64,000 nt of DNA from Plicaturopsis crispa FD-325 SS-3 (taxonomy: Eukaryota; Basidiomycota; Agaricomycetes; Amylocorticiales; Amylocorticiaceae): contig KN832563.1 in assembly GCA_000827205.1 (NCBI GenBank), positions 344,268 to 408,267 of the forward strand, in the 5' to 3' direction. This document shows, in pieces, positions 1 through 34,003 of this stretch. Below the pieces are notes generated by a model. That model saw only the letters and a program-made list of their open reading frames with translations, did not search any database and was not told where the DNA came from. The translations under genes and the position numbers were made by a program. The number at the start of each line of letters is the position of its first letter. Within the stretch, counting starts at the first letter, position 1.

Positions 1-108
1 GCGTTACGTTTGGAAAGATAACTTGGTACTGGTCTTCGGACCAGGAAAGGTGGATCCTTGATTCCGGCTTGAGCTCATTGCGTCGTATCAACGGGGACAA
101 TTAACGCG

Positions 109-378
109 AAAGGGCTTCGGTAGGTTTTCTACTTTGGCATCCCAGCCAACTCCTGGTCGCTTCCCGTACTCACCGTGTATTCCTGGACTCTTAGGATACG
201 TGCAACGAAGCGATGCAGGCCGTCCAAAGCCGTGCGGAGCGTAAAAGGGCTTCGGTACGATTTCTACTCCAACATCCAACCACGACTCGTTCGCATTGCT
301 TATCCACTGTATACTCTTGGACTCTTAGGATCTGTGCAACGGTGCAACGTGTGCCATCCGAACCCGTGCGGTGTCGAC
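109..378. repeat. Two-copy diverged tandem repeat, period about 135 bp
   Basis: The string AAAGGGCTTCGG begins at 109 and again at 244. Both copies continue with matching blocks, including GGACTCTTAGGAT followed by GTGCAACG, and both end near CCGTGCGG. The two units differ at many positions, so the duplication is not recent. No convincing gene covers it. Its role is unknown. Confidence 0.75.
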
Positions 379-924
379 AGTTTCATACACATATCTTTGT
401 ACGGCCAATAACTCTACAAAGCGACTTACAAAATATGATGCTCTTTTCCGAACGCGTACGAAACGGTTAGCCCAGTATAAGGGCAAGTGAACACCCTGTC
501 TAAAACCGAGCGAAAGCAGGTTTGCTGACGACTATGAGACGAAGAAAATTGGAAGTAAAGGCCAAATTTCCCAGAGTACGAAGCCGAGGATCGGAGTTCG
601 AAAGATGACGCCGTTCTGTTCGTGATTGCGAGGAACAATTGCTTTCTGCGGCTACCTGGGGATCGCCACCACGGCGCAGGTTGACAGCCGACGCTCAACG
701 GTCATTCTCAAACCTTGCTCTCATAATTTACTCAGCCGCTCTTTTCACTCGTCAACATTCTAACCGGACCCACGGAAGATCTGTGACGTCTCAAAAAAGC
801 GGATCTCTGTGACCTCTCCGTTGGCGCCTTTGGACGCAATGGCGGACAAAATATTTCGTAGGCACAAGAAGACTTCAGGCTAATTTCAGGTATGTAATTG
901 CGAGCTCGGTAACGACTATACTCG
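379..924. other. Non-coding stretch without recognisable features
   Basis: No reading frame with protein-like composition or paired splice signals was found on either strand. It lies between the tandem repeat and the 3' end of the minus-strand gene at 925. Confidence 0.5.
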
Positions 925-1841
925 CTACGAGCTTATTCCAGGATAACCGATTATAGTGGACGATCCCTCCTCCTTTGTTTCGTTGATCCAACTATCGAAC
1001 CTCGTAAGCGTATTGGCACGACGTTTTCAACAAGGTCACTTACAGGCCAACTATCAAGTTTATGAATGCCAAAGAGCCTTCCACCATTTGGACCATAGCA
1101 GAACAATCCCGTCGTCCCAACATCACTACAACAATGTTCCCATGCCATTGTACGTGGAACATGTCTTGGATGGACTCGTTCCGAGGGCAAGAGGTCGACT
1201 GTTTGGATGAAAGTATTGCCACGCCGTTGTGAAGCCACATAGCAATTCGGGGGGCTTGCCACACATAATGCACATCGTATTTCTTCCCAAAAACTTCGCG
1301 GCAGTCCAGGGCGTCGACGGCGAATGGATACTCTCCCCACACAGAATCGAATTCCTTGATTGGCAGGTGTATCAATTTGGACCGATGAAAATCCGTGGGA
1401 AATATCGCGCAACGGTATGTTGTACGATCTACTTCCTACCACAAAGTGAGCGTGCGTCCATCGTCGTAAAAACACTAGCTCACCGTTTTCAGGAGCAGTA
1501 CTCGACGGTTCAACTTCTCGACGTGTTTCTTGTCGAACACTTGCCGATCGCCTTTGCGGAGAGACGAGTTCGCCTGTTCCATTCCCTTTCCACCGGATCG
1601 TACTCGCTCATGTACAGTCCTCAAAAAAGCCGCGACAAATACCTTTGTCCTTCTCGTCTTCATCAGGCCTTCGCTTCGAGAACGTAAGCCTGCAGCCAGC
1701 TCGGGAGGTGAACACTTTGTTGTTCGATTTCTGAACAAGGTGAGTACTCGACGTCGCTATATTATGAGAGAGCACGTATTCACTTTCGTCAGCAGTCAGA
1801 CGGTCAAAAATTAGGAGAACAGCGGACGTTGGCCAATCCAC
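925..1841 (-). CDS. Unknown spliced protein (3' half well supported, 5' end unresolved)
   Basis: The minus strand carries a protein-like frame read from about 1437 down to 1047. It includes DSVWGEYPFAVDAL, YVWQAPRIAMWLHNGVA and WHGNIVVVMLGRR. A donor (gtaagt) near 1035 joins in frame to a last exon encoding SWINETKEEGSSTIIG and stopping at 925. Upstream, an acceptor (gtag) near 1438 joins to a basic exon with VEKLNRRVLLLK. The first exon or exons lie above 1841, because the exon at 1841 is preceded by an acceptor (gccgcag) and has no ATG. I do not recognise the family. The tryptophan-rich core resembles uncharacterised basidiomycete proteins I have seen in repeat-rich regions, but that is memory and not a search. 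Confidence 0.45.
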
Positions 1842-2266
1842 CTGCGGCCCTGTATACGTGCGTGACTCTTGGCACGACGACTCACATGTCCAAATTTTCA
1901 GTATGTCTGAATCGCCGCGGTTATGCCGTAAGTTTACGTTCCATCGTGGCAGTGCGACTCCTGGGAGATAGACACATGTTTCACTGTGAGTTTGTCAACT
2001 TACATTTTTCTCGCGTCTACTGAAGGAATCAGATGTCTTTTCGTCGACAGGATGTCAGCATAGAGCATCACATGCCAGGTTAATAGTGCTCCAGTCCTAC
2101 CGCGGATACGTGGTGCGGTTCTCGCGTGACTTGTAGTTGAGTGACCCCGACACACCATCTGGCGACAGTTAGGGAGAACGATTTTCTAGTTTCTCTCCGT
2201 CCACCTATAAAAACCGGCAGCCAACACCACAGGACTAGTCGTCGACAACACGTCACAACTACAATT
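1842..2266. other. Possible 5' exons of the minus-strand gene and promoter of the 2267 gene
   Basis: The 5' part of the minus-strand gene must lie here, but no start could be chosen. The two genes are arranged head to head, so both promoters probably sit in this interval. TATAAAA at 2207-2213, about 55 bp before the ATG at 2267, is a possible core promoter element. Confidence 0.35.
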
Positions 2267-3897
2267 ATGCTCATTCCCGAAGTCGACCTCGCCACCGTGT
2301 CCATGAGCCGCTTTCGTCCAAACGAACTCCCCATTCTAAAGGTCCTGTCGAGTGTCGAGGAAAGCAAGAAACATGTCGAACTGAGGTCCAATAATTCGGG
2401 AAAGCGCTGGGACGTGAGTTGCGCATTCTTCCCGTGTCAATTACATTTTTCCACTGACAGCCACTTTGTTCATGTTGCAAGTTCTATCCGATTACGAAAA
2501 CTACAGTCGCTGTATTCACGCATGCCGCGTACTGGCTTCGCGGGACGCCGTCCAGGACCGGCAACTTCGTCAAAGTCGACGACCCCGTGCCGTCAAGCAT
2601 AGTCGGCACTAAAATGTAAGTCTATCACCGTCAACTTTTAGGGTCACTAATAACTGACGTAGTTACGGTAGATACAGAGAACCACACATAAGGTGTCAGG
2701 TGACCTATGACTTCGACATAACACGAGATCGTTCGTTGGAAAATTGTAGCCGGGTACGTGCATTGTTCGAAGTCTTTCGTCGTCCTGTGTAAAGACTGAA
2801 CGGTCGAGAGGTAGGTTGTCGATGAACTTGCTAGCTTGCAAGACAAGATCGGAGGAGACATACCGCGTAGAGATTGGAAGTCTGCGTACGGCGGAAAGTT
2901 CCAGATGACTTGCCCACTCCTTGAATGGAGGACCCAATGGAACGCGAACTCCGTCGCAGAAGGTCGCTATAGCTACGACGTTCACCCTGACATCCTCCAA
3001 GCCGTAGCGGATTCGACCAAGTTTATCCCCAGTCTCTCAGCACCGGCACGCTTGCTTGCCCTAGAGGACGGTAAGCTTGTCGACCTGGAGACCACCGACT
3101 TCCCGTCACTGGGAGAGGGGGACGTGGTGTGGATGTCATTTTCGATCTGTATCGTCGTCACGCCCGTAGCCTGGTGGCCAGAGTACAACCCTCAGGACAT
3201 TGTCCGGATTGCCCGTTATGAACCAGACCCGGTCGGCTCGTCTAACGTCATCCAGATTACTAGGACGAGGCCACCCGTACGTCCTCGCGTTACTCCTCTC
3301 ACACTCGGCGACGCAAACTTCCTAGGTACGTCCTTTCATATGAGCCATCCGAACACTCAGGTACTCAACGCCGTGTAATAGACGATGCGTCGTGTCCTCC
3401 TGAAGAAGCATCCAGCGAACCTGTCGATAACGAGAACATGTCCCCAAATGCATCGTTAAATCACTCCGAAACCGAGGCTCACGAAACCGCTGAAAGCGAC
3501 AAGAGCAGTGTCACGTTGTCCGATGACAACTACGAAATGATTGGCATCGATCAAGGTCGGCTCACATCCGCCATTGTGCTCGTCTTCTGCCAGTTCTAAT
3601 TATACGCAGAAGAGGTTACTCACGTCGAGGGCGGCACTGCATCGACTAACTACTCCGAAATTCCTGTAATCCAACGTAACGGTTCGTCTTTTCCCGTAAC
3701 GAATGTAATTCGACTACGCCTGTAAATCCTGACTCCGACTAGACCCTGAAGATGGCGTACCCGGTGAAGGTATCCAGGAAACAAGTCTCCTGTCGTCTTT
3801 CAAGAGAAAAATTGAAGACAGTAGCACTTTGGAGAGTGAGGAGGGGAAAGGGACGATTCCGAAGAAGCGTGTTAATAAAGGGAGAAAGGGCAAGTAG
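2267..3897 (+). CDS. Unknown basidiomycete protein, multi-exon, probably nuclear
   Basis: The ATG at 2267 opens MLIPEVDLATVSMSRFRP. Splicing at gtgagt (2414) joins PLCSCCKFYPITKTTVAVF and AAYWLRGTPSRTGNFVKVDD. Further exons carry RCQVTYDFDITRDRS and then VVDELASLQDKIGGDIPRRD, followed by GEGDVVWMSFSICIVVTP and WWPEYNPQDIVRIARY. The C-terminal exons are acidic and serine-rich and end in a basic run, IPKKRVNKGRKGK, before the TAG at 3895. That run looks like a nuclear localisation signal. All joins use GT-AG borders in consistent phase. The layout (CCKFYP segment, V-W-S-F core, charged tail) fits a recurrent uncharacterised agaricomycete family. No catalytic motif was recognised, so no function is offered. 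Confidence 0.6.
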
Positions 3898-4390
3898 GAG
3901 ATGGCGGGCAAGAGTAGCCGGTGGCGTCACAGTCGTAGGCTATGTTACTACCAACTTGCAAATGGAATGTAATTTTCGACATACATTGGATCTTCGAGAC
4001 CCACACAAGTCTTCAGGTCAGGGTTCAGTCGGCCAATTCGAGCGCCCGCGACCCCCTGACCAGAAAAAAACTTTACAGCAGGGAGAAACTGCACGGAACA
4101 TAGCAGGGCGCCTGACGACTGTCGCGTGTTGTCGACCAGAAGAATGACCGAGCGTCGAGACATTGTAAACACGACAGTTTCCCAAAAGGGATACCACAGC
4201 CACAGGAACTGTCATCCATCCACTCTATCCCGTGCCAATACTTCCGAATCATTTCCTGTGATTCCCTTTCCTCCTCCTCCTCGCACTGGTCACGCTAACG
4301 ACCGTTAATTGCCTCAGAGATTCACAGGATTCCGTAGCTTCTAGACACCGCCTTCAACCTCTTCGCTTATAATGACATCGAATTATGTAG
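3898..4390. other. Intergenic spacer
   Basis: No coding signal is supported. It separates the unknown protein from the F-box gene and presumably holds the F-box promoter; a pyrimidine-rich run (tttcctcctcctcctcg) lies at 4267-4283. Confidence 0.5.
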
Positions 4391-6741
4391 ATGTCTACAA
4401 CCGGAATCATGCCGTCGACACCAGTTATGCGCTCGACCACATCCTCACTCGATTTGAACACCCTGCCTCTGGATGTCCTCTACGAGGTGCGTTGACACCA
4501 GAGTTGTTTTCCTGCACCTACCGGCTAACAATAAACCAGATATTGTGTTATTTACTTCCCCAAGATCTGATCCACCTAACTCGCACAAGCAAGGAATTTC
4601 GGTACTTCCTCCTCAACAAAGGGAGACGTTTTGTATGGAAACACGCCGAGGAGAATGCTCATCCGCTTCCGCCGTGCCCTCCCGACATGTCTGAACCGAG
4701 CTACGCTCGTCTGATGTTCGACACCCGCTGCCATGTAAGTTGAACAGTTGATGTTTCCAATTGGCGTACGCCGATTGCTGACGATTACACGTAGAACTGT
4801 ACGGTATGTCTACTATCCATGCTACCTCTCATTCCCAAACCGACGATCATAGGTTCCGGGAGCAACTGTACTCTCCTTTACCCTCCGTGTCCGTTACTGC
4901 TCGTTGTGCGCGCGTTTCTGGTACGTCTGAATAACTTCCGTAACTCTCCCGGACCTGACTCGCCCCATCGCCAGCTTACTGTCGCAGTCACACTTCAACA
5001 CCATAAGCAACGTCGACTCTATCCTTATGCGCACTATCCTCTTCTGCTACATGAATCCTTGGGGCCCCGTCTGTACAAAAGCAGGCGCCGCTCGCATGCG
5101 AACTCGGCTCCTTAGTATGGACTTTGGAGATAATTCTACGATCACAGACTTTATTCGCGACCAAGAAAACGCAAACGCGGCAATTAGCAAGGTACGTAGG
5201 CCACTTCTCGCGAACACATATCCCGAGGCTCACATTTATCTTCAGCATGCCCAGCTCTGCTCAGAATGGAGTCGGAACGGTCAACGTAATAAATTCGCGG
5301 AGATCGATAACGTGTGTCAGACTAGAAAGGCAACGTTCGTGTTCAATGAGTTAACAAGGGCGACATCGACTGACCTGCACGCATAGAATACTTTCCCTTC
5401 TTGGGGAAATGGGGTACGACAAGGTCATGGAGCAGATGCCCCGGAATCATACACAGTATACAGACAATCATTGTCTGGTCGACGATCATTGTCTGATCGT
5501 GCGCCCTCGGACTCTTACGACGACAGGTCATTTCCAACTAATCATGTTTTCCGTGTCCCACGATGCTGATCGAACGAATGTCTCATATTTCACAGAGTGG
5601 GAAAGTATCCGTCCCGACATGATCGTCTGGGCGGAAGAGATGAAAGAACTTGTGGCTGCGGCCGAACGAAGGGACTTGCTTGCGTCCAGGAAAGAAATTG
5701 CGACGGCGGCACTTGCAAAGTGCTTACGCTCTCAAAGATCTGCGTCGACTCACACTACCGACCCCGTACACGGTTACGCAGCTGGCGTTGTTACTCCTGG
5801 TCCAGCCGACTTTTGGCAGTGGGCTCCTGTGGAAAGGTTTTTATCCTCACCCAAGACGTCCGACGAGGCACTCCCGCACCTAATTGCCGCAATCAACGAC
5901 TTTCCGACAATATTTCTTCAATGGCAGCAACAAGTAGCGAGTGTGCTTCGTGCAAAAGCGATTTGGGGTCCCGCCAATCCTCCCTTGCCGCTTGCTCTCA
6001 ACGTATTTCGTTGCACGACAAAGGGACAATGTCGCACGCATAATTACTCGGAAACCCCCGAGTTTCGCGACATCGCCTTGCTTTGGTACCCCGAGGTGCT
6101 ACTTCATCGATGCAACACTCTTGACATACAGCTTCCTTCTGATTGGGAACCACGATATGCTATCGAATGTATACAGGGCCGGGAAACATCACGCGCGTAT
6201 GTACGTCGGCCTTGGTCTGCTGACACGCTAGAATTCAGTGACAAGGCGTCGTACGCCGTGGGTAACATCATCAAACTCTGTGGTTTGGACCCTTTGCGTA
6301 CGACGGCATCCGATTTGGATAAGCTGACAGCCCGCTTCCTCTGTACCGCGTGCACGGGCGGTATCCGCCTTGAAGAGTTAAACGGGGCATTCAGAGTCAT
6401 GAGTTGGAGATTATCGGTGAGCAGGAACCGGCGCCGTCACCTTGCCTGCTCAATGCTCACACCCCATCCCCTAGGTCTATCATTGCGTAAGATTCCATCA
6501 GTCCAAATACTGGGCACGACTCGTCCGGATAGACGACATGCGCGCTGCAAACTCTATCAGGACGGAGAAGACGATGGAAATGATGACTCCGACAACTCCG
6601 GCATTGGAGGTTTGGAAGTGCCTGCGATGCAAGAATACGCGGGACGAGGTCGACCTGATGAATACAGACCAGCTATGGATGCACATGAGTCGGCAAGTGT
6701 CTATCCGGATCGCCGTCCACGATAGCAACCCTGACAAGTAA
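4391..6741 (+). CDS. F-box protein with C-terminal Cys/His cluster
   Basis: Translation from the ATG at 4391 across a first intron (4487-4539) reads LPLDVLYEILCYLLPQDLIH followed by LTRTSKEFRYFL, a textbook F-box for Skp1 binding. Later exons encode PPCPPDMSEPSYARLMFDTR, then a CHNC...RVRYCSLC pair of Cys motifs, a coiled segment (AEEMKELVAAAERRDLLASR), and a C-terminal WKCLRCKNTRDEVD...HM cluster that may bind zinc. Exon 3 is only 9 nt (4795-4803, Asn-Cys-Thr). An intron at 6418 (gtgagc to ctag) joins SWRLS to VYHCVRFHQSKYWARLVR in phase. Substrate is unknown. The simple stop is at 6741. A 22-nt GT-AG segment just before it would instead continue the frame to about 6877. This is a known basidiomycete F-box architecture and looks intact. 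Confidence 0.75.
5461..5477. repeat. 17-bp palindrome inside the F-box gene
   Basis: CAGACAATCATTGTCTG is a perfect palindrome with a one-base centre. It is followed at once by GTCGAC and a second GATCATTGTCTGATC. It lies in a part of the gene that may be intronic. Confidence 0.6.
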
Positions 6742-6759
6742 TCACATTTTGTTTCTCAG

Positions 6760-8168: not shown

Positions 8169-9607
8169 ATGCATCCTAGGCCCGTTGATGTCAGACACCA
8201 TTCGGTCCGCCCCACGACGACAAGTACGTTGTCCCGGGAAATGTTACGCTTCATTTCTAACGATTTTGTTAAGGAAGCATATATCGTCCTCTCGAACCCC
8301 GCGAAAAGTGGTGGAGAGCCGATCGGTACGTGCTCCAGGGTCATTTCTTGCGACCAACGATAATATAACAAGAATTGCATCTCGTAGCGACGCCCTCACA
8401 AAACAAAATAGTCACATTGACGAGTGGTTCCGCATTCGCCATGTACTTTTCAAGGACATGTCGCCGTCCGAGACCTCGGCCTTTGCAGGAACCTGCACGC
8501 ACCTCTTCCACTGCGCATCGGACAGCCTATACGATGTTATCAAAGTGTCAGACTCCTCGGCTCTCCGTTTCTTCCAGACAATAACGGAACAACGTACGAC
8601 ATTCCCTGTCCCGGAGTGCGCCAAAAAAGACTACGGTAGTGACGACATCGTTGTCCGCCATGCCGACCGTGTCTCTCATCTCACGTACACTTTCTCACTT
8701 CGCGGTGACGGGATAATCCATTTTCCCGTATTCGCAAACGCTTTGCTAGACATGGCGAGTCTCAAGCGGCTACAATTATCTGTCGTTGCAGGTGAAGGCG
8801 TGACACTCATTAACTCCCTGTGTCGACTTCGAGTCCTTCCCCGCAACGGTGTACGGGCAAGAACATGTCTCCCAGCATTGGTGGATGTCGGCGTGTCCGG
8901 CGACGTGGAACTCTGCCGCATTTTCGCGCTTCGGAGAATTGAAACGGTTAGGATGGGTCCATACAAAGACACAGACCTTACAGAGATCGCCTTCGATCAA
9001 ATAGCGGGTGCCCATAATTCATCCTCTTCCGCGAACCATCTCTGCATTTCCCTTTTTCCCTCGGCGTCGATCCCTTCCGTGGTTCGACAGATCCCAAAAA
9101 CCTTTCCCAAATTGTCTACCCTGACTGTTTCGTCGGAGAACCTTGACATTGCCGTGAGTTCCGTTCTACTCTTACTTATTCCTACGCACACATTGACAGC
9201 ATGCCAAGGAGCTTCTGCATGCTTTATGGACATCGGAATGGGATATGCCCGAGTTGAAGGAAATTACCTGCCACGATTTCGGAGTGCATTTCTTACAGGA
9301 CGCGACCCCGCGTGAGTACGCCAGATACCTCGCACGACAGCAAACCTTCCTCTGGCACCTTCAACACCACCGTTCGCCTGACCTGCTCAAGGTCGTTTGT
9401 GGTTGCATCAACTGGTCGCGGGACACATTTTCGATATGGACCCCACAACCATGCGACGAAACCGCTGCGTGGTGGAAGTATACCACGCTTTCGCGCGATA
9501 CGAGCGCCGTTACTGACTTTGAAAAGCCAAAAACCGCAGTAGAGACTGCGCAAGATATATTGGGAGCGTGGGGGTCGACTTATACGGTTGCTTATAGTAA
9601 AGACTGA
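8169..9607 (+). CDS. F-box-like / leucine-rich-repeat-type protein
   Basis: The ATG at 8169 opens MHPRPVDVRHHSVRPTTTR. Two introns (8222-8273 and 8325-8371, each starting gtacgt) then join in phase to RIASRSDALTKQNSHIDEWF. An F-box-like helical segment follows (VLFKDMSPSETSAFAGTCTH). The middle is a series of hydrophobic strands and turns (SLKRLQLSVVAGEGVTLINS; FPKLSTLTVSSENLDIA) typical of the degenerate repeats of fungal F-box proteins. A last intron near 9152 (gtgagt to gacag) joins AKELLHALWTSEWDMPELKE. The stop is at 9607. This is probably an SCF adaptor; substrate unknown. The frame closes cleanly, so it looks intact. Confidence 0.6.
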
Positions 9608-10622: not shown

Positions 10623-13600
10623 TCACGCCCTCGAAACTACATCGGCTCCCGCTCGACGCAGCCCATTTGCAGTGAGAGCATCCAAGTCATCGATTCGTTT
10701 CAGCTCGTTCCGTAACTCTTGAGACAGGCGTTTCCCGCACATCGAATTCTGCGGGAACCACCGTAAAATCGCTAGACCTTCCAGTTTCCTCACACGGGAC
10801 AACATTACGTACATTCCCTGTAACGAGCGAGCGCTGCAAATGTCCACGATGGCTACTTTCATCGAACGGCCCTGACTCTTATAGTCGGTGAAGCAATACC
10901 CGGGTAAAAGCGGCATATGTGTCCTCCAGTACGTCCGCGAGCCACCTCCGTACCGTTTTTTTCTCTTTAACGTGAACTTAGAGCGGACCGGAAATATGGG
11001 AACAACGTCCTCCTCCAGGTCTTCCGCAAATTTTCCGGAACCTTCTACGCGGACATATACAACCATTGCACGCCTGTGACCCTGATCATCGTTTTCGTAG
11101 TCGATTCCGACGACGACACCTTCGGAACCATTCACAATACCTTTACTGAAGGCTAGATTCTTCGTCACCATAACCTTCATCCCTATGAATAATGGCAACT
11201 TCCCGAGATTACCTTCGCTTTTTGACGAAGGTTGCGCCCGTAGAAATGCTTGTTCCCAACGCCGGACAGGAGCTCCCAGGTATGTGTCGTATGAATAATA
11301 AAACTCCACAGACTGATTTAGACGCTTAGCATGTTTTGTAGCCTTCTTCAAGTTAACTGCATCTCTGAGAGCCTTTGTCCCGACGATAATGGGCGCGTCT
11401 CGAAATTTTGTACGGTTTGCGGGATCGACCTTGATGAGGTAGTCAAGATCACGCTCCCTCATCATCTCCACGTCAGATATCGATTCCATTGGCTGTCGCG
11501 CGTACGCACCCCTCGCAGTGCATTGACCGATGCGAACGCGAGTCAAGAAATCTGCATAGCGAGTATCTCCACTCTGGCGATGGTTCTTCTTCAATTTCAC
11601 TACCACATCTACCTGTCTCCACAGACAAGCTCCTTCCATCGCTTTCACACCTCTGGCATTACGACTTTCGACATATGACGGACAATCGACCAAATCTCGC
11701 GAAAACAAGGACTTCTCACCGGGCGGTTCAAGCTGGCCAAAGTCTCCTGTAAATATAACATTTATTCCTCCGAAATTCGTGGTCGCCGCCTGACAATCGT
11801 CTCCTTTAGCCTCTCTCAAACGATCCGAGATTTTGCTCAGGAAATTAGCGCCGATCATGGACACTTCGTCAATAATCAGGTATCTTACCCCGGTCCAAAG
11901 AGCACGGAGGTCTGCAAAATTCGTCTTCTTTGCACGTGAAAGCATGGCTAATGAGTGAATAGTATAACCTCCGATCAACAGCGCCGCGCACCCCGTCGGG
12001 GCACTTAGCATCAGCTCCTTTTTACGGTCCAGTTTTTCGAATAACAGGACAATACTCTTTATAACGTGTGACTTTCCGGTACCACCGACTCCAGCAATGT
12101 ACATCAGGAGTTGACTAGTCCCGTGCGACATGTGCGACGCAACAATACGGAATGCCCGCAACTGCTCTTCGTTGTCTGCCAGGTTCATCTCTTCTATTAC
12201 TTCGCTCATTGCCTGTCTAACTGTCTCGTCGACAGGCTCGGTGGAGACCCTCTCTTGACACGACGTGTCTGTGACAGCGTCAATTGACGTCAACTTCACT
12301 TCGGGCTCCCTTTCTCTATTCACGTTGTGCGTCTCGCCGGGCTCATTGCCAGTGGGCAATTGAAAGGCAGGGCGTCTAATCTTAGCTAGGTTTTCCATGA
12401 TTACCGCGTGTAATCTCACACGCGCTGCGATCGTATGGTCAATCTCCTCCGCGCCGTCCGCGTCACGGAAGCACGCATGCTCCTCATACTCATTCGGAAC
12501 TTCTTCACAATTGTCGAGAGACTCCCTACAAGTTACACCCACCAAATTATCTAGTAAGTTTGACGCAACATCATCCACTACAGCTGCGGATAGAGTCTCA
12601 TCATCGTCTTCCATTCCGTCGCAGTCATCTTGGTCGCCACTACGTTCTTCCCTTCCCGCGTACTCCTCCAGGAAATAGTCGGTCCCCAAGGACACGTTCC
12701 CGGTCATATAACCTCTACCAGCAACGTCCCGCGCATCTCTACATTCTGAGAGAACGTTCATATTGCGTATCACACGCTTGTGGCGTTCTGTTAATAACGG
12801 TTCATACGACTTGTACGCTTCAAGCCAACCTTGACCTCCGTGTCTGAGGTCACGCGGATGTCTCCACGGTTTGAACAAAGTTAACATGGCCCTAGCCCAC
12901 CGACAGCGTTCGCTGTCGTCGCGGTCAGGTCGTGGTAACGTGTTCCCAAGTATTACGGGAATTCGAAAATCTTGTACGTTTCTTACTTTCATGCGATGCG
13001 TCAAATACTGAGGATGTAAAGGAGAAGACAACCTCCCCAGGAAACGTTGCTCAGTCCCCTCAAAAACGTCTTCGACTTCTTGACACTCCGCCTTAGGTAT
13101 GACAATCTTATACACTGCACCGACAAAATCATACAAACACATGGATTCCATTTGCAGATCATTCGTGCGATAGATGTAATCGTACTGCTGATTCGTCGCC
13201 GAAATGGACCCACAGCCGAGGGTCAGCACCATGTCGTCCAATATCTCTTCCTCAAGAGCGTCTACTACCTGTCCGTCCGCTTCAGATCGCCTGTCCTCAT
13301 CTTCCCATCCCTCATCCTCGCCTTCACCCACGGAACTGTCGTAGTCGCAACTATCACTCCCGATACTTTTCACTGAATGAAATCTACACATCGACACCGT
13401 AGACCTCGACGTCCTTTCGTCGACAACCGCGACCGAGTTAATGTCGTTTCGCTCGGCACTCGTAACCAGGTTTGTCGCATATGTGAAGCCTTCCTCGTCT
13501 TCGTACCCGTCTTCACTGATATCGATGTCGACGTTTCGGGTAGCACTCGAATTGCTCCTATCCAAGGGGCCGCTACCCAAATCGTCTATCGTCCGTGATC

Positions 13601-18522: not shown

Positions 18523-19795
18523 ATGGGCCTCGTCACCATGGACGACCCTATTCTTTCCCCGAGCGAAGCACGTTTCGTTATCTTCCCTATCAGATATGAA
18601 GAGGTAAGGATTCGTACACTGCTACAAACCGTCTTTCGCTAAACGGCTCAGATATGGTCTCTGTACAAAAAGGCCCAGGCGTCATTCTGGACTGCCGAAG
18701 AAGTGGATCTCTCGAAGGACATAGTGGACTGGCGAACGAAATTGTCAGGCGACGAGCGAAAATTCGTGCTCCATATACTCGCTTTCTTTGCCAGTTCCGA
18801 TGGCATTGTAAATGAGAACCTGGTCGCTCGTTTCTCCACTGAAGTCCAGATACCGGAGGCCCGTTGCTTTTACGGGTTCCAAATCATGATGTACGTCCTC
18901 TGTAATGTATGAAAGGTAACCTAACGGGCGAATCACTTCCAGGGAGAACGTCCACTCTGAAACTTACTCCCTTTTACTCAATGCTTTCGTAGGGGACGGA
19001 CCCGTCCTCGACCGCCTCCTTCATTCCGACTCTACTGCACCTTATATTCGGGCAAAAGCCGACTGGTGCTTACGCTGGATCACGGATCGCGTCAACTCTT
19101 TTCCTGTCCGACTAGTTGCTTTCGCCGCCGTCGAAGGCATTTTTTTCTCGTCGTCCTTCGCCGGCATATTTTGGCTACGAAAGCGAGGGCTTCTGCCAGG
19201 CGTCGGATTTTCCAACGAATTAATATCACGCGACGAGGGTCTTCACACCGAATTCGCTTGCCTCCTACATTCGCTTTTATTGAAGAAGGCCGAGAAGACA
19301 ACTATCCGTACAATCATTCGCGAAGCAGTGCAACTGGAGAAGAAATTTAGCGAAGGTACCCTTACTACACTTCTCAAGCAGTCGAGTTCTGCAATACTCA
19401 TGCACTCGTCTAGATGCGCTACAAGCACCCCTCATAGGCATGAATGCCAACCTCATGAGCTCATACATTGAATTCGTAGCAGATCGACTGCTCCAGATGC
19501 TAGGATTGGACGCTGAATTCAACGCCACGAATCCGGTACGCTTACTATTTCTATTATCTCTATCTAACCAACCCAGTGAATAGTTTCCGTTCATGGAGCT
19601 CATTTCCATGGACGGAAAAACAAATTTCTTCGAGAGAAGGGTTTCGGATTACAAGGTCGCCGCCGTCAACGTAGGGCCCACCCGAACAGACGCAACAACG
19701 AATAGACTATTGTGAGCCAGGACTTGTTACCCACACGCGACATCACTTACGCCGCTGCTGTTCTTCGTTATAGTTCTACCGCGGAAGATTTCTAA
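18523..19795 (+). CDS. RNR2: Ribonucleotide reductase small subunit (R2) paralogue, complete
   Basis: Six exons (18523-18603, 18652-18890, 18943-19355, 19414-19535, 19584-19711, 19774-19795) sum to 1005 nt and give 334 residues. R2 makes the diferric-tyrosyl radical that lets the R1 subunit reduce ribonucleotides. The class Ia signature is complete: iron ligands in [48 protein letters not shown] and [10 protein letters not shown], with the radical tyrosine in HSETYSL. The C-terminal R1-binding tail is restored only by splicing a 22-nt last exon, giving NRLFSTAEDF; reading through the donor ends early. Fungal R2 proteins are usually near 400 residues, so the N-terminus is short. This may be a true feature of the paralogue, or upstream exons may be missed. 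The many introns argue against recent viral or bacterial origin. Confidence 0.92.
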
Positions 19796-21248: not shown

Positions 21249-22628
21249 ATGTCTTCCTACCCGCACAACCATTGGTTACAACCGCAGTTTGAAGTCGACT
21301 TTGTAGGGGTCGACGCCAGCCAGTTCTTCCGAACTGTACACGGTATGACACTGAACACCATAAATACTAGGTCAGTATATCATCACAGACTCCTTATAGT
21401 GTGTATACAAGACTGACATCTACAGGTATATGATCCCCGTCGACGAGGATGCAATACGCGTGGGTTCTTGGTATTATTTTAACCAAATCCAAACACTGAA
21501 ATTCATTCGAAGCGCTCGTTCTTGCTCAATGTCATGGTGTACTTCATGTTCGATTGCAAAAACTATATTGGGCCGGTTGACGAGATTTTGAGGTCGAGCA
21601 TCAATGACCCGGGCCGCCTACGGAATATCCTTGACCTGGGCACCGGTGGCGGACAGTGGTGAGTACCCTGAGTGTTGTCACAATGATGGTAGATGTGTAC
21701 CACATATCATTAGGGCAATTAGCATGGCCGATAAATTTCCTCGAGTCGAGGTCACTGGTGTCGACCTTGCCCCCATCCAACCCAGGTGAGCTTTTTTCGA
21801 TAACGTATCTGGATTCAACTGATTGGTCTTCAGGCTTGTTCCACCCAACTGCACGTACGAAAGCTACTGTCTCTTTTCGTACCGGTGTACGCGTCTAACA
21901 GATTGATCACAGGTTCGATGTATGTGATTTAGATGTGCCGTCGCTACCGTACCCAGATTGCACTTATGACTTTATCCATGCCCGATCGATGCACACTGGA
22001 GTGAGTTCCTTTCAGCTTATTCAAAGTCTTCAGTCGGTGACCCACGCATGATCGACCACATTATAGATTAGTAATTACCCTAGGCTCCTTAAAGAGATTG
22101 GTCGACTGCTACGACCAGGTGGCATGGTCCTCCTAATCGAGCCTGACCTCGAGCCCATGGCCGACGGAAGAATGGCCTCTGAGATAGAAGGATTCTCTGG
22201 CCTGTCAGGGTGGTTCGCCCTTTGGGAAGCCTACCACTACTGCTTGCATCGGCGGGGCATCGACGTCACCGTCCCTCAAAGCCTTCGAGAACTATTGGAG
22301 ACAGCTGGTGAATTCGAAAATATCTCTGTCAGGGTTGGCAGTGTCCCGATTGGCTTTTGGCCAAGAGGTATGTTACCAGTTTCACCGATTAAATAACTTT
22401 TAACGAAAGACCCACAATACTCTCACAGACCCCCTGCATCTCGCTATTGGTGAAATATCTTGGATGTATTTCGACTCTCTTCTCCCCTCTATGTTGCCCA
22501 TCCTAGTCGACTCTGGTTACCCCGAGGGCCACGCAAAGGTCTTAATTCAGAGCGCTCAGCAGGACCTGTACTACCCTATCGTCCATACCTCCACCCGTCT
22601 TCACATCGCATGGGCCTTTAAAAAGTAG
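21249..22628 (+). CDS. LaeA-like SAM-dependent methyltransferase
   Basis: Eight exons join in consistent phase from the ATG at 21249 to the TAG at 22626. The family start MTLNTINTR...YMIPVDEDAIR is followed by NYIGPVDEILRSSINDPGR. SAM-binding motif I is ILDLGTGGGQWAISMADKFP, then VEVTGVDLAPIQPR, FDVCDLDVPSLPYPDCTYDF, IHARSMHTG and RLLKEIGRLLRPGGMVLLIE. The C-terminal half ends AWAFKK. It is a class I methyltransferase of the fungal type annotated as methyltransferase domain 25 / LaeA-like. In other fungi such proteins regulate secondary metabolism and development, but many paralogues have no known substrate. No metabolite cluster is visible around it. The frame is complete. Confidence 0.88.
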
Positions 22629-24500: not shown

Positions 24501-25673
24501 ATGACACCGACATTCCCGCGGACCTCCCGACACCCGGGTCAGTCAGGTCTCGAGCGACTTCTCACATCTCAAGCGTCGAGAAAATTTTACACCATCTTTT
24601 TCTACCACTGGCCTCCCGTTCTCCTCATCATTCTAGGAGTCGTGTCCACGAGACTCAGCGCAATCTATGCAGCCGTAACGACAATACGATGGTCACCCGA
24701 TCATTTTCTGAAGGTGTGGTTCGTCGCCCCTCGCACATTTCGTGAAGCCCTCCTCCGTACGAATGCCGTCATCTGCGGACCTCAGACCTACAACTACTTC
24801 CGTGGTGTCACGGACAGAACTACATCGCTCGACGTGTTCGTTCGCACAGGGATGGAAGGACCACTGCTGTCGTTCATGCGTAGACTTCCTAACAGCATTC
24901 CTCTTTCCAACACCCATTATTTCGGATCCGCGCCACCACCCGAACGCTTCATACGACTCACCCACCAGGACACCTTTCCCGTGCCCGAATATCGCCATCT
25001 CTGCACGTTCTCGTTTACGATAGCGCGCGACCGATCTTCGCCAGGCGCCCCTCTCCCAAGGCGCATGGTGAACATATTCCACGTACCTGCTGAGCCCGTC
25101 ACGTATCTTATTCGCAAGCTCCCATTCAGTAAGCATTCCCTTTTTCTTTGCCTGGTCCGTATACCGAACTTGGATTCCAATCAGGCGCAATGATGAACTT
25201 TGTCTTCGCGGACAGGGCTATCTCTCTGTTCCCTCGCTCGACTTTTGAAGAAGGAAAAGTTATCCCATGCGATTACAACCTGCAGCTTTCACATATCCAC
25301 CATCTGTGGGACAATGTGTTCGATTCGTTAAGAGTAATTCAAAAACCGAAGGAAATGCCTTCAGAAATGCTACCAGACATGCGTAGTCTGAGCGACGACT
25401 CGGCCTGGCTTATAACCTTTCACGGTGAGCGATCCAATCGCATGTGTTACTAGTACCCTTGCACTCAATTGCCCGTCCGTAGACCAGGAATTCGAGGCTA
25501 TAAGAAAACGCGAACACTTGCCTTTACCACGAGCGGAACCTTCTGTTGTCTACATCGACGGAGTCACGATCTCGCTACGCCCGTACCGACCTATCCAATG
25601 GAACGACAGCGAGAGCAGTGATAACGACGGCGAGGACGAGGACGAGGACGAGGACGACGGCCATGATTCGTGA
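24501..25673 (+). CDS. F-box-like protein, paralogue A of a three-member family
   Basis: Three exons join from the ATG at 24501: a first exon through EPVTYLIRKLPFS, a second with AMMNFVFADRAISLFPRSTF, and a third with DQEFEAIRKREHLPLPRAEP and an acidic tail (repeated GED/EDED) before the stop. The N-terminus aligns with the F-box-like helices of its two paralogues downstream, and the next block reads FREALLRTNAVICGPQTYNY followed by SLDVFV. The family pattern G(S/P)..L.FF...S.LD.Y. resembles the nucleotidyltransferase-fold signature, but this copy keeps only one of the two expected acidic residues. Substrate and function are unknown. It looks intact. Confidence 0.65.
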
Positions 25674-26077: not shown

Positions 26078-27360
26078 TCAAGGTAATGTGCTCGTCGAAC
26101 AAAAACTAACTTCGTTTGCAACGCTCGCCGCGTACTCAATGTCGTCGATTTCTTCTTCTCCTTCCAGCAAATCTTGAGGGATCGGGACCTCCGGCAATTC
26201 CATGGGGCTGTTTGCACCGATAAATCCAGTAAAAAAGTATCGCTCCAGGCAAAAAACTAGACGGAACGAACCTTGCAGGTATGTTCCGTATGCAAACAGA
26301 AGGCCCTGCACCGCCGAACTCGCCACTCGGGGAATCGTCCAGCGCGACGGTGAACTGTATGTTGGCATTACATGTATTTTTGCGTTTACCACACGAAAGT
26401 GACAGAACTAAAACCTGTCAGATACACATGAACAAACTGAGAACCGCGACAATGGCATACCTTTCGTTGCTGACGCCGGAATAACCCACGAGCGGGCGTC
26501 AAGGATTGAGCGTTGTCCGGTGACAAGGTCTCCGGAAAGGTATGGATGATCTTTCCCTATCATCTCAAACCCTCGCCTACGCCATTTTGTCATCCATGGC
26601 GAAGGCTCGCCTTCGACCCCGATCGGTGGTCTACAGATGAAAGACAGCCTGTCGTCGAAAGTCGCGCGAGGGAATAAAGCGACCGCTCGATCCCACGTGA
26701 AAAAGTTCATGACAGCAGCTGCAGATAGAATCAGGGAGACGGTGAGACACGAAATACGGAGCATTGTGTACTAGAATGATGAGCAAAAACCATCCACAGT
26801 AAGTTGTGATGGCCGGATACAATCAGTTGAACCTCTTTGTTCACGGACACATTGAAGAAATAGAACACAGCGATTATATCACTGAGACCATAAATCTCTT
26901 GACAATCGTGGAAGTTAACGGGCTGTTCACACATCTCGTGCGCAGCGTTGTCCCAAGTGTCAGGGTCGCCATCCCTTGGGGAATACTCATAGCCTACTGA
27001 TAGTAGGTAGAGTCCCATATCACCCACAGCCACGGGACGAATGTAGATGTCGAAGTCACTGTCCACGTAGTAGCGACGTGAAAAGAATTGCAATGGCTGT
27101 GATCCCGACACTAAAGCGTCGCAACGACGAAGCTGGCGTCGAAACCCACGCGCACTAGGAAACCAGCGTGCTAAAAAGTTGTCCATGTTCCATACTTCGG
27201 AGGAGTACCGGTCGACTCGATTCCGAAACATGCGATTAACAAGTCGAAGAACGTAGACGTCGCCGGGAGAACACAGCCGGAATATGGCATCGGAGACGAC
27301 GACCGACCACTCCTTAAAAAAGGAAGCGCTGCGAGACTGTTGGAAAGACGAACTGGCCAT
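26078..27360 (-). CDS. F-box-like protein, paralogue B, with nucleotidyltransferase-like signature
   Basis: The ATG at 27360 opens MASSSFQQSRSASFFKEW. The F-box-like segment reads FRLCSPGDVYVLRLVNRMFR and is followed by MDNFLARWFPSARGFRRQLR. Then comes CDALVSGSQPLQFFSRRYY and DSDFDIYI, which fits the GS...D-x-D pattern of nucleotidyltransferase folds. An intron starting gtacac joins FAHHST in phase to AVMNFFTWDRAVALFPRATF; later exons carry EMIGKDHPYLSGD and the acidic NSPMELPEVPIPQDLLEGEE tail, ending at 26078. The exact borders of the penultimate intron are uncertain. Function is unknown; SCF adaptor is the likeliest role. Confidence 0.62.
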
Positions 27361-29192: not shown

Positions 29193-30178
29193 TCAGACCT
29201 CTTCAAAGTCGACGAAATCGCACTCACAATCGAATTCCATCACCCACATGTCCTTGTCCACGGCACGACGCCACCCTACGTGCATCGGATTCTTCAACGC
29301 TTCATCCCATCTATCCGTCGAATAAAACGTCGAGCGCAGATACTTCTTCAACCACTCCTTCGGCAGTTCCGGGAATCCCGTCTTTCCCTTGCACGATACG
29401 CACAAACGTTGCTCGAAGGTGACATCGGGAAACATAGAAAAGGCTCCGTCACCTAATATAAAATTATTGAGTGCGGCTATCGGAAACGAGCCGCGTCAGC
29501 CTCTCGAAAACGTAGACACGCATCCACAATATAAATCGACGCACTGAAAGGCGAGTGACGCAAGATTGCCTTGACCGGTTCGGTATTGGTGACGTGGACG
29601 TTGACTGTCCTCAGGCTCAGGCGAAGGGTGTGTTCGTCCAAGAACGTCCCGAAGAACGAAAACGTACGATCGGGGTGGGCGAATTGCAAGTGATCGCCAG
29701 GAATTTTGGGACGAAAGCGCTGGGCCACGACAGTCGGGACGAGTGCTGATATCGCGGTGTCGTCGCAAGGCGAGCGCGACCGAGTTTGTGACTCATTTCC
29801 GGAATGGGTGTACCGATAGAGCAAAAGAAAGTCGACCAGGGTTCGTACCCGGCAAGCTGCAACGTATACATCAAGCGGGGCAGCCCGATCCTGTACCCTA
29901 TCGAAAAAGTACAAGGCCTGGGGGCCAGAAATTACCGCTCCTGTGCGAACGAGGATTACACGAAAGTGGCGCGGAAGAGGAAACCAATTGCGCAAAAAAC
30001 CGTCCACGTTCCATGCGTGAGTGCAATACCACTCGGCGACCATGCGAAAAGACCAAGACACCCGACCGAAGAGGCAAATAAGGCCTGGAGTCCACTGCCG
30101 AAAGAAGAGGCCGACGAACGACGCGTTGGTTTCTGCGGAGAAGAGCCTTTCGATATTGGACAATCTCTGACTCGCCAT
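29193..30178 (-). CDS. F-box-like protein, paralogue C
   Basis: The ATG at 30178 opens MASQRLSNIERLFSAETNAS. The family blocks follow: NVDGFLRNWFPLPRHFRVIL, TGAVISGPQALYFFDRVQ, PLDVYV, and NVHVTNTEPVKAILRHSPF. An intron (donor gtgcgtcg, acceptor gatag) joins in phase to NNFILGDGAFSMFPDVTFEQ and the exon stopping at 29193 after CECDFVDFEEV. The same gene layout in all three copies shows one family spread by duplication. This copy lacks the second acidic residue of the possible nucleotidyltransferase motif. It lacks the acidic C-terminal extension of A and B, unless a further exon was missed. Confidence 0.62.
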
Positions 30179-31219: not shown

Positions 31220-31932
31220 ATGGCTAACATACAGCTACTTTCCAGCGATAACGAACTGCACACTGTGGACAGAAACATAATTCAGAGAAGTGCGCTCGTG
31301 AAGAAGATTATAGACGGTGCGTTCAAGTCATCTTCAACGACGAAGCTACAATACACTGATTACACCCCATCAAAGGCTCCTATGACGGCAAACCTATTCC
31401 CGTCGCCAATGTCTCCTCTGCCATTTTAATCAAAGTGAGTTCAACAATTATCTATCCAAGAACATTCAAGCAAACGCCGGGACAGGTCATCGAGTACTGT
31501 GAATACCACAAAAACGAGCCCATCGCCAGCGAGGACAGCGACCTCAACCCCTACGAAATGCGCAATCGTACACTGCAGATTAGCCCATGGGACCGCGAAT
31601 TCATTGACGTCGACCTCGATACACTGTTCGACATCATCATCGCGGCGAACTACCTCGAGATAAGGGAATTGATGTAAGCCTTCCATCGAGCTTCCTGGCG
31701 ACTTCCCATTCTTAACCGAACGACTGGAACTACAGTGACGTCGGATCCAAACGCATTGCGAGCATCATAAAAGGGAAAACTCCGGACGAGATCCGTAAAC
31801 AGTTTGGCATCGTCAACGACTTCACACCCGCCGAAGAAGAGCAGATACAGAAGGAAAATGTGAGCGGAGAACGCTCATCCTACTACACATTTGTTCACCC
31901 TTTTCCGGCAGCGATGGGCAATGAACTGGTAA
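31220..31932 (+). CDS. SKP1: SKP1-like protein, complete paralogue
   Basis: Five exons (31220-31316, 31376-31434, 31486-31673, 31736-31859, 31912-31932) sum to 489 nt, giving 162 residues, the normal Skp1 length. The BTB/POZ half reads [40 protein letters not shown] and [20 protein letters not shown], then [20 protein letters not shown]. The F-box-binding half reads [20 protein letters not shown] followed by [18 protein letters not shown]. Skp1 links F-box proteins to Cul1 in SCF ubiquitin ligases. The last residues differ from the usual ENEWAEDR-type tail, although the conserved Trp is kept. Its 21-nt last exon is needed for the stop. The neighbourhood holds at least five F-box or F-box-like genes. 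It is probably an extra copy and not the essential housekeeping gene. Confidence 0.93.
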
Positions 31933-32706
31933 ACAGGTGCACGACACCGTGCAATGCCCACAAGGACCTCAACGCATATCACTGGAGTCCCGCTCGAAAG
32001 TCACTACCGCCACAACTAGCAGTGAGAACAACAACTGCGTTCCCGAGGCCGAGCACCGAGTCATTTACAAGAACTTTTACTGTACATGTTTCCAGCAGTA
32101 GACAACGCGTCCTCTCCGACAACAATCTCACCGCCGTATGATTTATTTTCACTTGCCATTAAACCGTCCCAAGCATACTACATAACTCCGGCGCGCAAGA
32201 AATTAAACGCAACGAGAAAACCTCTGTACGGTGACAGACCCGAGGATGCATCAATCGCGAAAAAGACAAGTAATATAAGAACTTTCGCCTCCGCGCATAG
32301 AAGTCAACGACAACACAACCCGCATGTCGGAATACACGTGACGAGACGCGTCTACGACGCGTCCAATTCAGTCCGTCGTACTTTATGACCTGTTCCGCTC
32401 CTACGCACACCCTATATCGTGAAACACATCTGAATTGTCCACTACCTCCCCTTGTTGATCGTGGCACAACCTCCAGCATCGGCGTCGTTATCTATAAGAC
32501 GTTTGAAAGAGTAACGGGGAAGTTCTGCCTTTACGCCGACCTATCACCACTCTGTAACGTCATGATAAATGAATTGTCCGTGTCAGCACCGCATTGCTTT
32601 TGACGACTGAGTCCGTTCTCATCTGGCCACACAATACATAAGACAAGAACTCGCATTATTCAAAGTACAAGCAGTTATCCACCGTAGCCAAAGCAGCAAA
32701 CCAAAT
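31933..32706. other. Spacer between SKP1-like and Zn2Cys6 genes
   Basis: No coding signal with recognisable motifs or coherent splicing was found on either strand. Confidence 0.45.
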
Positions 32707-33155
32707 ATGTCAACCTCTGGACAGGTACGAGACAGCTACAGACCCGCCACAGCTACCTATTAATGACCACTATTTCCCGAGAAAGACAGGAGACGACTCA
32801 GGGAAAACACAGAATGACGACCACGACGACCCTGTATGGTGTTCAAAACGTGTGCCAAGACGAACCCCGATCGCATGCTTATTCTGTAGAAGTAAGCAAC
32901 CCTTGCTGGCACCTACTTATGACCTGCAGCGCACTCATGTCCGAGGACAATTTTCCAGAGCGCCATATGAAATGTGATGGTCTTCGCCCGTGCTGCCGCC
33001 AGTGCGCAAAACGTGCGCAGGTATGTCACTACGTACCTGTGTGAGTATCTCCTTTCAGGGTGCAATACACGGATACTCATGATGTCCCGACACCAGGTCG
33101 AAAGAAGCAGCCCCGTAAATGTCTCCCTACCGTAGAGGACGTACAGGCAAGATAA
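32707..33155 (+). CDS. Short Zn2Cys6 DNA-binding protein
   Basis: Exon 1 (32707-32724) encodes MSTSGQ. An intron with donor gtacga joins in phase to an acidic exon (32786-32891) ending RRTPIACLFCRK. A second intron joins at 32959 to RHMKCDGLRPCCRQCAKRAQ and VCHYVPV. The six cysteines follow the C-x2-C-x6-C-x6-C-x2-C-x6-C fungal binuclear zinc cluster, so the protein should bind DNA. There is no room for the usual regulatory middle domain. The 3' end is uncertain. A canonical but only 18-nt GT-AG segment at 33041-33058 would keep the frame open through a basic GRKKQPRK run to the TAA at 33153; otherwise the frame stops at 33042. Confidence 0.7.
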
Positions 33156-33494
33156 GTGTTAGCGGACAGTGATGATGTGACCACCCAACTTAGCACTCAT
33201 CTGTTACCCGTCCTCTACGGAAAACAACCAAAAAATGTACACGCTGCCCAGGAACATGACCAATTCTTATAACGAAGCACATATGATGAAGTTTCCACGT
33301 AAGAACCCGTCTCCGCCGGGATGAGAGTAGAGGCGTCTCGTTCCCGACTCTACACTCAGAGAAGAATCAGTGAATAAAACGGTCTACGGCAAAGTACAGA
33401 TGACATACCATTGAACGCCGTCGATCCTATAAATCCACAACTACGTTCTTGCCAACTTCCTCACTTCCTCGCATTCGACTTGTCCCGTGTAACA

Positions 33495-34003
33495 ATGTCA
33501 AAACCCTCCACCTTCTCGCTGAAAGACATCTGGCAAAATAGGTATATTCAAGACTACCCGATGCTCTCGGGGCAGTGCGTACTCATCATTAAGTTGGAAG
33601 AGAAAGAAATCCACTGACAAGGCTTGACAGGGACATCGTAACTGACGACGAATATAAAACCCGTCATGAATACCTCACCATTATGAACCTGCCGGTACTC
33701 CTTACCGACACCACCCGCTTCGTGTGGATATACCCGTTCCCGGGTTCCTTGTCTGCTCCAGTCCACTGGCAAATGAACAGGACCGATATCCAAGGAGAAC
33801 CCATCTTACCGCACTCGCGAGGAAGAATTGTTGGGCTGGTCGCAGGGAACGTACGCGGTGCACTTTCAGGACGCATCGTGACCTCCGACAACCAACAAAA
33901 TACCGAAATTGTTCATTTTGTGTGGCTTTTGGACGAGCCCTACAATGGAGCGCAGCTGCACAGTCTCTCCCTCTTCTACCCCATCCTTCCTGAAATAGCT
34001 TAA
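33495..34003 (+). CDS. Orphan 156-residue protein with a 38-nt intron
   Basis: Two exons (33495-33592, 33631-34003) sum to 471 nt and encode 156 residues. The splice reads VLIIK|DIVTDDEYKTRHEY. The protein begins MSKPSTFSLKDIWQNRYIQD and continues NLPVLLTDTTRFVWIYPFPG, HSRGRIVGLVAGNVRGALSG and IVHFVWLLDEPYNGAQLHSL. It has no signal peptide or membrane span and looks like a compact beta-rich globular fold. I do not recognise it. The 38-nt intron is at the low end for fungi. It is the last gene of the island before the host-like half. Confidence 0.55.

Follow-up and report, generated by a model that had tools for sequence, protein, structure and literature searches.

Genes of the island and its flank

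The window, that is the whole stretch of DNA analysed here (64,000 nt of Plicaturopsis crispa FD-325 SS-3, contig KN832563.1, 344,268-408,267), contains an island that we call C10, in which a Helitron Rep-helicase gene (RepHel) lies at 10623..16826 on the minus strand. This gene is a single open frame of 2067 aa whose DUF6570, Helitron_like_N and PIF1 domains all exceed the Pfam cut-off, and an earlier description of this DNA from its letters alone (the sequence-only reading) was thus right to call it intact. Its Rep domain matches PF14214 (E 1e-33), and the H-L-H of the HUH motif is present in all eight aligned RepHel rows; the helicase domain of the same protein (PIF1/SF1; PF05970, E 1e-21) is matched by solved PIF1 helicases as well. 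When eight RepHel genes were compared, five, including that of the window, formed one clade (clade A, or RepHel-A) and three fell outside it. The clade-A consensus contains YYxTDYITK, which may be the Y2 motif that supplies the catalytic tyrosines of Rep.

A ribonucleotide reductase R2 gene occupies 18523..19795 on the plus strand in six exons (18523-18603, 18652-18890, 18943-19355, 19414-19535, 19584-19711 and 19774-19795). It is assigned by PF00268, by its ligands and by solved relatives, and its spliced model ends in a stop codon, so that the subunit is complete, as had been claimed. A SAM methyltransferase gene, labelled ‘LaeA-like’, follows at 21249..22628 (plus strand, PF13489, ends set by eye), and its assignment to the methyltransferases survives narrowly, one exon barely exceeding the Methyltransf_23 cut-off with 27.8 bits vs 27. 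Two orphan genes are divergent neighbours, namely Q, a 131-aa open frame at 1043..1435 (minus strand), and P at 2458..3375 (plus strand), with exon-like frames at 2458-2616, 2658-2789 and 2815-3375. Q has no Pfam match, and a search of solved structures with P, Q and the F-NT family described below gave single weak matches only (E 0.27 or worse). An NCBIfam match of a P relative (19.5 bits vs a cut-off of 305) was put down to chance. The block also extends to the left of the window, with genes at C10:341.2-342.4k and 343.3-344.4k that had been overlooked.

Five F-box or F-box-like genes had been counted in the window. The one at 8188..9604 (plus strand) belongs to an LRR/F-box family (LRR-F), F-box being assigned through its relatives and LRR being a label by look. 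Three belong to an F-box/NTase-like family with alpha and beta types (F-NT): those at 24501..25450 (plus strand) and 29196..30178 (minus strand) have a degraded motif, and the one at 26411..27360 (minus strand), of the beta type adjoining R2, keeps GS...SDFD. The nucleotidyltransferase-like motif GS...SD[FL]D occurs in 6 of 14 aligned members of this family, including all four beta genes; an AlphaFold2 model of F-NT beta, made with three window rows, had a pLDDT of 35.5 and was set aside. The fifth, at 4345..6725 (plus strand), consists of an F-box-like exon and a 438-aa frame, taken as one gene by assumption, and belongs to a dispersed family. None of the five window ORFs reaches the F-box cut-off, ORF 4345 scoring 17.4 bits vs 24.3 and ORFs 8188, 24501, 26731 and 29477 giving no match to the profile at E up to 1, but a relative of the 8.2-kb gene at another locus (C2a, below) passes the F-box-like cut-off (26.0 vs 24.3), and the label F-box is owed to relatives. 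Two relatives of other F-box-type window genes, on contig C1, give sub-threshold F-box matches.

The SKP1 paralogue at 31220..31932 (plus strand) proved complete, as described: in a five-exon model its POZ and dimerisation domains score 62.9 and 78.2 bits, far past cut-off, and its C-terminus reads KENRWAMNW, the last exon being proposed by eye in the same place as the last exon of the host gene. The mini Zn2Cys6 protein (32688..33041, plus strand) is a possible assignment, its match lying below cut-off (17.0 vs 21), and the small protein encoded at 33593..34003 (plus strand) is dispersed, with 9 matches in the genome, 5 of them within 30 kb of a RepHel-A gene. The next 30 kb had been described as mostly housekeeping, which agrees with part of what we found in the ten ORFs scanned there: four have domains past cut-off (RhoGEF, FYVE, SAICAR synthetase and MKT1_N), two, an O-FucT and an F-box-like ORF, score below it, and four are without a match. 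For genes to the right of 34.6 kb, the compared stretches of other loci gave a single weak match (31% over 84 aa). A search of Rfam gave no match at gathering scores.

Recurrence of the gene set around related RepHel genes

All locus counts refer to the single genome of P. crispa, and co-localisation means a radius of 30 kb around a RepHel-A gene. The other four RepHel-A loci are C2:1.53-1.56 Mb (C2a), C2:2.00-2.04 Mb (C2b), C18:0.62-0.637 Mb and C24:0.106-0.13 Mb, C2a and C2b being two islands on the same contig. The sequence-only reading had named as a check the presence of the same gene set beside Helitron genes elsewhere, and this check was positive at all four. All five RepHel-A loci have an R2 gene, which is absent from the contigs bearing the three RepHel genes outside clade A; six of the eight R2 genes of the genome lie at RepHel-A loci, with two at C18. 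P (4 matches, all within 12 kb of a RepHel-A gene) and LRR-F (4 matches, two of them weak, all within 17 kb) are confined to these loci. Six of 7 matches of Q lie within 30 kb, the remaining one being at C23, as do 10 of 13 matches of F-NT, with strays at C1 and C36, and four of the five methyltransferase matches lie within 17 kb, with a stray at C8. The recurrence of P and Q had escaped the sequence-only reading. Neither P, Q nor a methyltransferase gene turned up at C18, where the contig breaks off next to RepHel.

The 4.3-6.7 kb gene, our internal control, has 12 non-self matches, none of which is within 30 kb of a RepHel-A gene, and SKP1 is found in this genome at the C10 island and at C8 only, being absent from the other four islands. 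The idea of one large accessory or mobile unit is thus partly supported, in that a gene set recurs at the RepHel-A loci. This set does not take in the whole 34 kb, as the dispersed 4.3-6.7 kb gene and SKP1 fall outside it and the 33.6-34.0 kb gene is partly tied to it.

Most RepHel-A loci are accordingly tied not only to R2 but also to the methyltransferase, P, Q, LRR-F and F-NT, with gene order partly kept. At four of the five loci RepHel and R2 are arranged head to head with 1.1-2.8 kb between them; Q and P are divergent neighbours at all four loci where both are known; and C2a and C2b agree in the order and strand of LRR-F, F-NT alpha, Q and P. The P/Q block lies to the left of RepHel at C10, C2b and C24 and to the right of R2 at C2a, and R2 is on the opposite side at C24. 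Because five RepHel-A loci each lie near an R2 gene, and usually near the same gene set, these data suggest a large old unit and not a chance pile of genes.

Age of the islands and alternative explanations

All seven positions of the iron ligands and radical tyrosine are kept in the R2 genes of C10, C2a, C2b and in one of those at C18, and ligands are missing in the second C18 gene and in the C24 gene. The R2 proteins of C10, C2a and C2b end in FSTAEDF, FSVHEDF and FSTTEDF, each followed by the stop, which presumably correspond to the known R1-binding tail that they resemble. With ligands and tail kept, these three are like eukaryotic class Ia R2 (yeast Rnr2/Rnr4); yeast Rnr4 is described as being without iron ligands, and in this respect the R2 gene of C24 and the second one of C18 resemble it. 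The element copies differ from class Ia R2 in their association with RepHel, in their exon layout, and in forming a branch separate from host R2. Indeed, the six-exon layout is identical at C10, C2a and C2b and differs from that of host R2, and in a tree that included one R2 of the host and two of mammals the element R2s separate from these with support of 100/100 (the genome has two host R2 genes, 88% alike over 120 aa, one of which was modelled). Tree and exon layout together led us to reject the idea that R2 was captured recently from the gene that the host has today.

Between loci, 0.21-0.26 of the first and second codon positions of R2 differ vs 0.59-0.66 of the third. Since synonymous sites are saturated between island copies and amino-acid-changing positions are conserved, we consider the islands to be old and under selection. 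The best DNA-level likeness between copies is 64-76% over coding stretches, and there are no recent copies. The methyltransferase is 79-88% alike between loci, far above the 53-57% of RepHel, and rates or histories therefore differ. Neither the RepHel tree nor the R2 tree is well resolved, and the two disagree, RepHel grouping C10, C2b and C18 (85/93) and R2 placing C18 outside the other catalytic R2s (87/92). Both genes are intact at C10, C2a and C2b and both are degraded at C24; copies at C24 and C18 are broken. At C2a, CpG loss is limited to the RepHel gene, with R2 unaffected, which looks as if the transposon had been silenced; the shift in one gene without the other could also reflect separate histories.

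The boundaries of the unit did not emerge as the sequence-only reading had envisaged, as neither the comparison of islands nor a hairpin scan gave element ends, a target site or an empty site. Nucleotide comparison of the flanks found no shared non-coding ends, the matches, as far as traced, lying inside named genes, and a strict scan of four of the five loci (C10, C2a, C2b and C24) for a perfect 8-10 bp hairpin with CTRR on the RepHel strand found none. Most shared genes are enclosed by the two copies (74%) of a direct repeat of 187 bp, one at C10:337.7k and one at 374.7k (window ~30448-30629), but as it shows neither a clear target duplication nor an unusual DNA fold (z 0.34), we do not take it for a boundary.

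The lasting purifying selection on RepHel and R2, the lack of recent DNA-level copies and of ends, and the presence of two islands on contig C2 would all be accommodated by an ancestral host cluster with a co-opted RepHel, multiplied by old segmental duplication and retained as paralogous clusters for host function that are now immobile. Against this scenario stand, however, the broken copies at C24 and C18, a CpG loss at C2a that resembles transposon silencing and the single weak match beyond 34.6 kb, and we consider it rather unlikely. It is still less probable that Helitrons and fast-evolving families accumulated independently in permissive parts of the chromosomes, without any unit, given that R2 is tied to clade A and not to other RepHel genes, that all P genes lie at RepHel-A loci and pair divergently with Q, and that the control gene inside the block belongs to a scattered family. 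Nevertheless, gene order is incompletely conserved, unrelated genes (SKP1 and the 4.3-6.7 kb gene) do sit inside the same block, and mushroom genomes commonly have F-box-type families. Finally, genes for R2 and for the ubiquitin pathway are frequent in large DNA viruses, and several diverged copies within one genome might be relics of such viruses with an acquired Helitron-like replicase; yet R2 and SKP1 contain introns, no virion gene occurs among that part of the ORFs that was scanned, and the search made of IMG/VR gave no relatives of RepHel-A or P, making this origin very improbable.

A candidate large Helitron-type unit and its known counterparts

Taken together, we argue that the C10 block is, on balance, probably one of five related islands representing an old Helitron-type unit of large size, which includes an R2 of its own along with a set of conserved accessory genes. 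In such a unit, RepHel would nick the DNA and copy the unit by rolling-circle replication. As to the roles that we infer for R2, SKP1 and the F-box-type proteins, the R2 of the unit would pair with host R1 via its C-terminal tail and increase the dNTPs available for copying when the host is not in S phase, and the F-box-type proteins, at C10 together with a private SKP1, would dock on host cullin ligases and could there dispose of host factors restricting the element. At C10, SKP1 and the 4.3-6.7 kb gene would have been added locally, and the present copies would be long-separated lineages, some of them decaying and one showing slight signs of decay through CpG methylation. If this is borne out, dNTP supply as a limit on DNA transposition becomes directly testable, basidiomycetes gain large elements with cargo as a candidate class, and an explanation is at hand for a repeated neighbourhood that family-by-family annotation would otherwise read as scattered paralogues.

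We know of no case in which a eukaryotic transposon bears a subunit of ribonucleotide reductase, and none was recognised among the matches listed from open-licence PubMed Central papers. The Helitron HELPO1 of Pleurotus ostreatus, which is 1.5-13.7 kb long, has defined ends and carries captured genes of unknown function (PMC4289320), resembles the islands in that basidiomycete RepHel genes are accompanied by multi-copy genes; the islands differ in their neighbourhood of ~40 kb, in that ends were not found, and in full-length genes common to very diverged copies. TET/JBP dioxygenases are borne by transposons including Helitron1 and Helitron2 (PMC12730594), and there, too, an enzyme gene is kept in several fungal DNA transposon lineages, Helitrons included, but the enzyme is a different one. 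Neither text contains the words ribonucleotide or F-box. Starships are likewise large, low-copy and diverged fungal units with accessory genes, yet they are reported from Pezizomycotina and use a tyrosine recombinase, whereas the candidate replicase of the P. crispa islands is RepHel; among that part of the ORFs scanned by Pfam there was no DUF3435 tyrosine recombinase captain. It is possible, if somewhat doubtful, that we are dealing with a eukaryotic transposon lineage which has its own catalytic R2 as a stable part, its copying freed from the host S-phase dNTP limit, and which also carries tools of the ubiquitin-ligase pathway (families of the F-box type, joined at C10 by a private SKP1) as well as two proteins dedicated to it; this giant modular Helitron would then be the basidiomycete counterpart of Starship.

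Genes of the left block

The genome searched comprised 33.2 Mb in 49 contigs (C-numbers below), with the window at C10:344268-408267; its gene families and many introns would fit a mushroom-type basidiomycete. In its leftmost ~34 kb, the Helitron gene that the sequence-only reading had called intact is indeed so: the Rep-helicase (RepHel) is a single 2067-aa frame with DUF6570, Helitron_like_N and PIF1, and an HUH motif is present. The ribonucleotide reductase subunit (R2; 18523-19795) is likewise complete, with six exons and with eukaryotic R2 chains as its closest solved relatives, and so is the SKP1 paralogue, whose five exons are laid out as in the host gene (an alignment of 163 columns with the sole other Skp1 gene found in the genome shows 87 identities). 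The proposed LaeA-like methyltransferase (21249-22628) passed the methyltransferase profile narrowly, and the F-box and Zn2Cys6 labels are putative, the window genes themselves scoring below cut-off. The F-box/NTase-like family (F-NT; 24501-30178, with relatives at C1:23-26k and on C2, C18 and C36) begins with a weakly F-box-like segment and contains a GS...DxD stretch resembling nucleotidyltransferases, the full motif being kept in six of 14 aligned members; no Pfam name was assigned to the members scanned.

Among ten ORFs scanned to the right of 34.6 kb, RhoGEF, FYVE, SAICAR synthetase and MKT1_N lay above cut-off, O-FucT and one F-box-like ORF below it, and four gave no profile match. In the first 40 kb, G+C ranges from 0.48 to 0.52; it is 0.54-0.60 at 40-54 kb and 0.51-0.55 beyond. 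Several repeats were also seen. A 51-base unit forms a tandem pair between R2 and the methyltransferase (20510-20611), and a 45-base stretch at 20216-20260 occurs at 10 places (87%) among the matches listed, with a core of ~55 bases almost identical in the four copies compared and differing flanks. A 187-bp direct repeat (74% alike, accompanied by 26 bases that match exactly) at ~30448-30629 and C10:337713-337898 brackets most of the shared genes.

Recurrence of RepHel, R2 and their neighbours

A PF14214 search found eight RepHel genes, five of which, on C10 (the window), C2 at 1.54 Mb (C2a) and 2.02 Mb (C2b), C18 and C24, form one group, here clade A (branch 99/98; 53-57% identity in the longest matched stretches, 44-64% in others). 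The C44 and C3 genes are 69% alike and both ~25% like clade A, and C7 stands separate. The 19 exon matches to PF00268 amount to eight R2 genes, six of them at the five clade-A loci (two at C18) and none on C3, C44 or C7. The remaining two, near each other on opposite strands at C1:1747-1750k and 88% alike over 120 aa, are taken as the host's own. The second RepHel clade (C3:796-812k, C44:8-27.9k) has common neighbours of its own, Cys-rich proteins alike between both loci.

RepHel and R2 lie head-to-head at C10, C2a, C2b and C18; at C24, R2 is on the other side of RepHel, 8 kb off. The neighbours Q (1043-1435) and P (2458-3375) form a divergent pair at C10, C2a, C2b and C24. The LRR/F-box-like gene (8188-9604), F-NT alpha, Q and P share order and strand in C2b and reverse-complemented C2a, on opposite sides of RepHel-R2 in the two; at C10, the LRR/F-box-like gene and F-NT alpha have traded places and changed orientation. 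No more than 7 kb separates F-NT beta from R2 sequence at C10, C2a, C2b and C18.

Counting matches no more than 30 kb from a clade-A RepHel, the window's own copy included and counts for large families being lower bounds, we found 4/4 for P, 4/4 for the LRR/F-box gene (two weak, E 2e-4 and 7e-4), 6/7 for Q, 4/5 for the methyltransferase, 10/13 for F-NT, 6/8 for R2 and 5/9 for the small gene at 33.6 kb; a control inside the block, the gene at 4.3-6.7 kb, had none of its 12 other matches there. The five loci with 30-kb flanks make up ~1% of the genome, and binomial tails for non-self matches (P, 1e-6; Q, 6e-10; methyltransferase, 4e-6; R2, 2e-9) serve only as guides, since they assume independence and paralogues at one locus are not independent.

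Age, selection and state of the copies

The copies are old, with synonymous divergence saturated in all 13 pairs computed (three R2, ten RepHel), and the R2 genes differ by 0.21-0.26 at first and second positions versus 0.59-0.66 at third positions. The R2 genes of the element separate from host and mammalian R2 (100/100) and differ from the modelled host R2 in exon boundaries. A single capture of R2 is likely, though not proven, because most of the branching among the element genes lacks resolution and C24 sits on a long branch.

Full-length RepHel frames persist at C10, C2a and C2b, and R2 at these loci retains all ligands, a common six-exon layout and in-frame starts and stops (the spliced C2b model is without its first residues and a short exon-end piece, where the corresponding DNA reads open). 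The C24 RepHel is broken into five frames, and the R2 there has lost ligands. The C18 R2 carries an insert of ~4 kb (C18:626.9-631.1k) that bears a 57-bp inverted repeat close to its ends; a related one lies where the RepHel frame stops (636.44-636.54k), near the contig end, which looks like hits on both genes by one kind of DNA transposon. Between P and RepHel at C2b, 299-bp inverted repeats (C2:2008485-2008783 and 2011302-2011599; 99% alike, ~2.5 kb apart) probably mark a young DNA transposon.

One unit or several histories

The suggestion that the 34 kb may be one accessory or mobile unit is largely right as to the existence of a unit, an old RepHel-R2 module being present at five loci, and fails for part of the content: the gene at 4.3-6.7 kb and SKP1 are additions, either local or dispersed, as perhaps are the Zn2Cys6 and 33.6-kb genes. 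By its proteins, the unit is of Helitron type, and it is only a candidate mobile element because its ends were not found; in this one genome, flank comparison and a strict hairpin/CTRR scan of the RepHel strand at C10, C2a, C2b and C24 yielded no termini, target site or empty site.

Histories may differ between the genes. The RepHel and R2 trees disagree where partly resolved, and the methyltransferase is 79-88% alike between loci, above RepHel, so the block genes are not all of one rate or history. At C2a (C2:~1535.9-1542.8k), the intact 2024-aa RepHel frame has G+C near 0.36, next to an R2 at 0.44-0.48, with third-position G+C of 0.26, a CpG ratio of 0.46 (1.25 at C10) and raised TG and CA, in a CpG-depleted, AT-rich tract with sharp edges at the gene. 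This is the pattern that CpG methylation directed at a transposon gene would be expected to leave, as a trace of silencing; separate histories of the two genes might also account for the contrast.

A transposon lineage with its own catalytic R2 as a stable part, a ubiquitin-ligase toolkit and P/Q, that is, a giant modular Helitron, is a reading we entertain only tentatively, and slightly more doubtfully on account of the disagreeing trees. From their families, we infer what roles R2, the F-box-type genes and SKP1 might play in the life of the element. By title and opening of the abstract, none of the PubMed Central papers found for Helitron together with ribonucleotide reductase describes such cargo, and the word “ribonucleotide” does not occur in PMC4289320, PMC6431247, PMC5148889, PMC12730594 and PMC10799480. 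In IMG/VR, our search returned no relative of the clade-A RepHel or of P.

Beside the catalytic R2 of C18 lies a second R2-like gene (C18:622.5-623.6k) in which, of the seven positions for ligands or the radical, four are missing. In this it somewhat resembles yeast Rnr4, and the pair is reminiscent of Rnr2/Rnr4.
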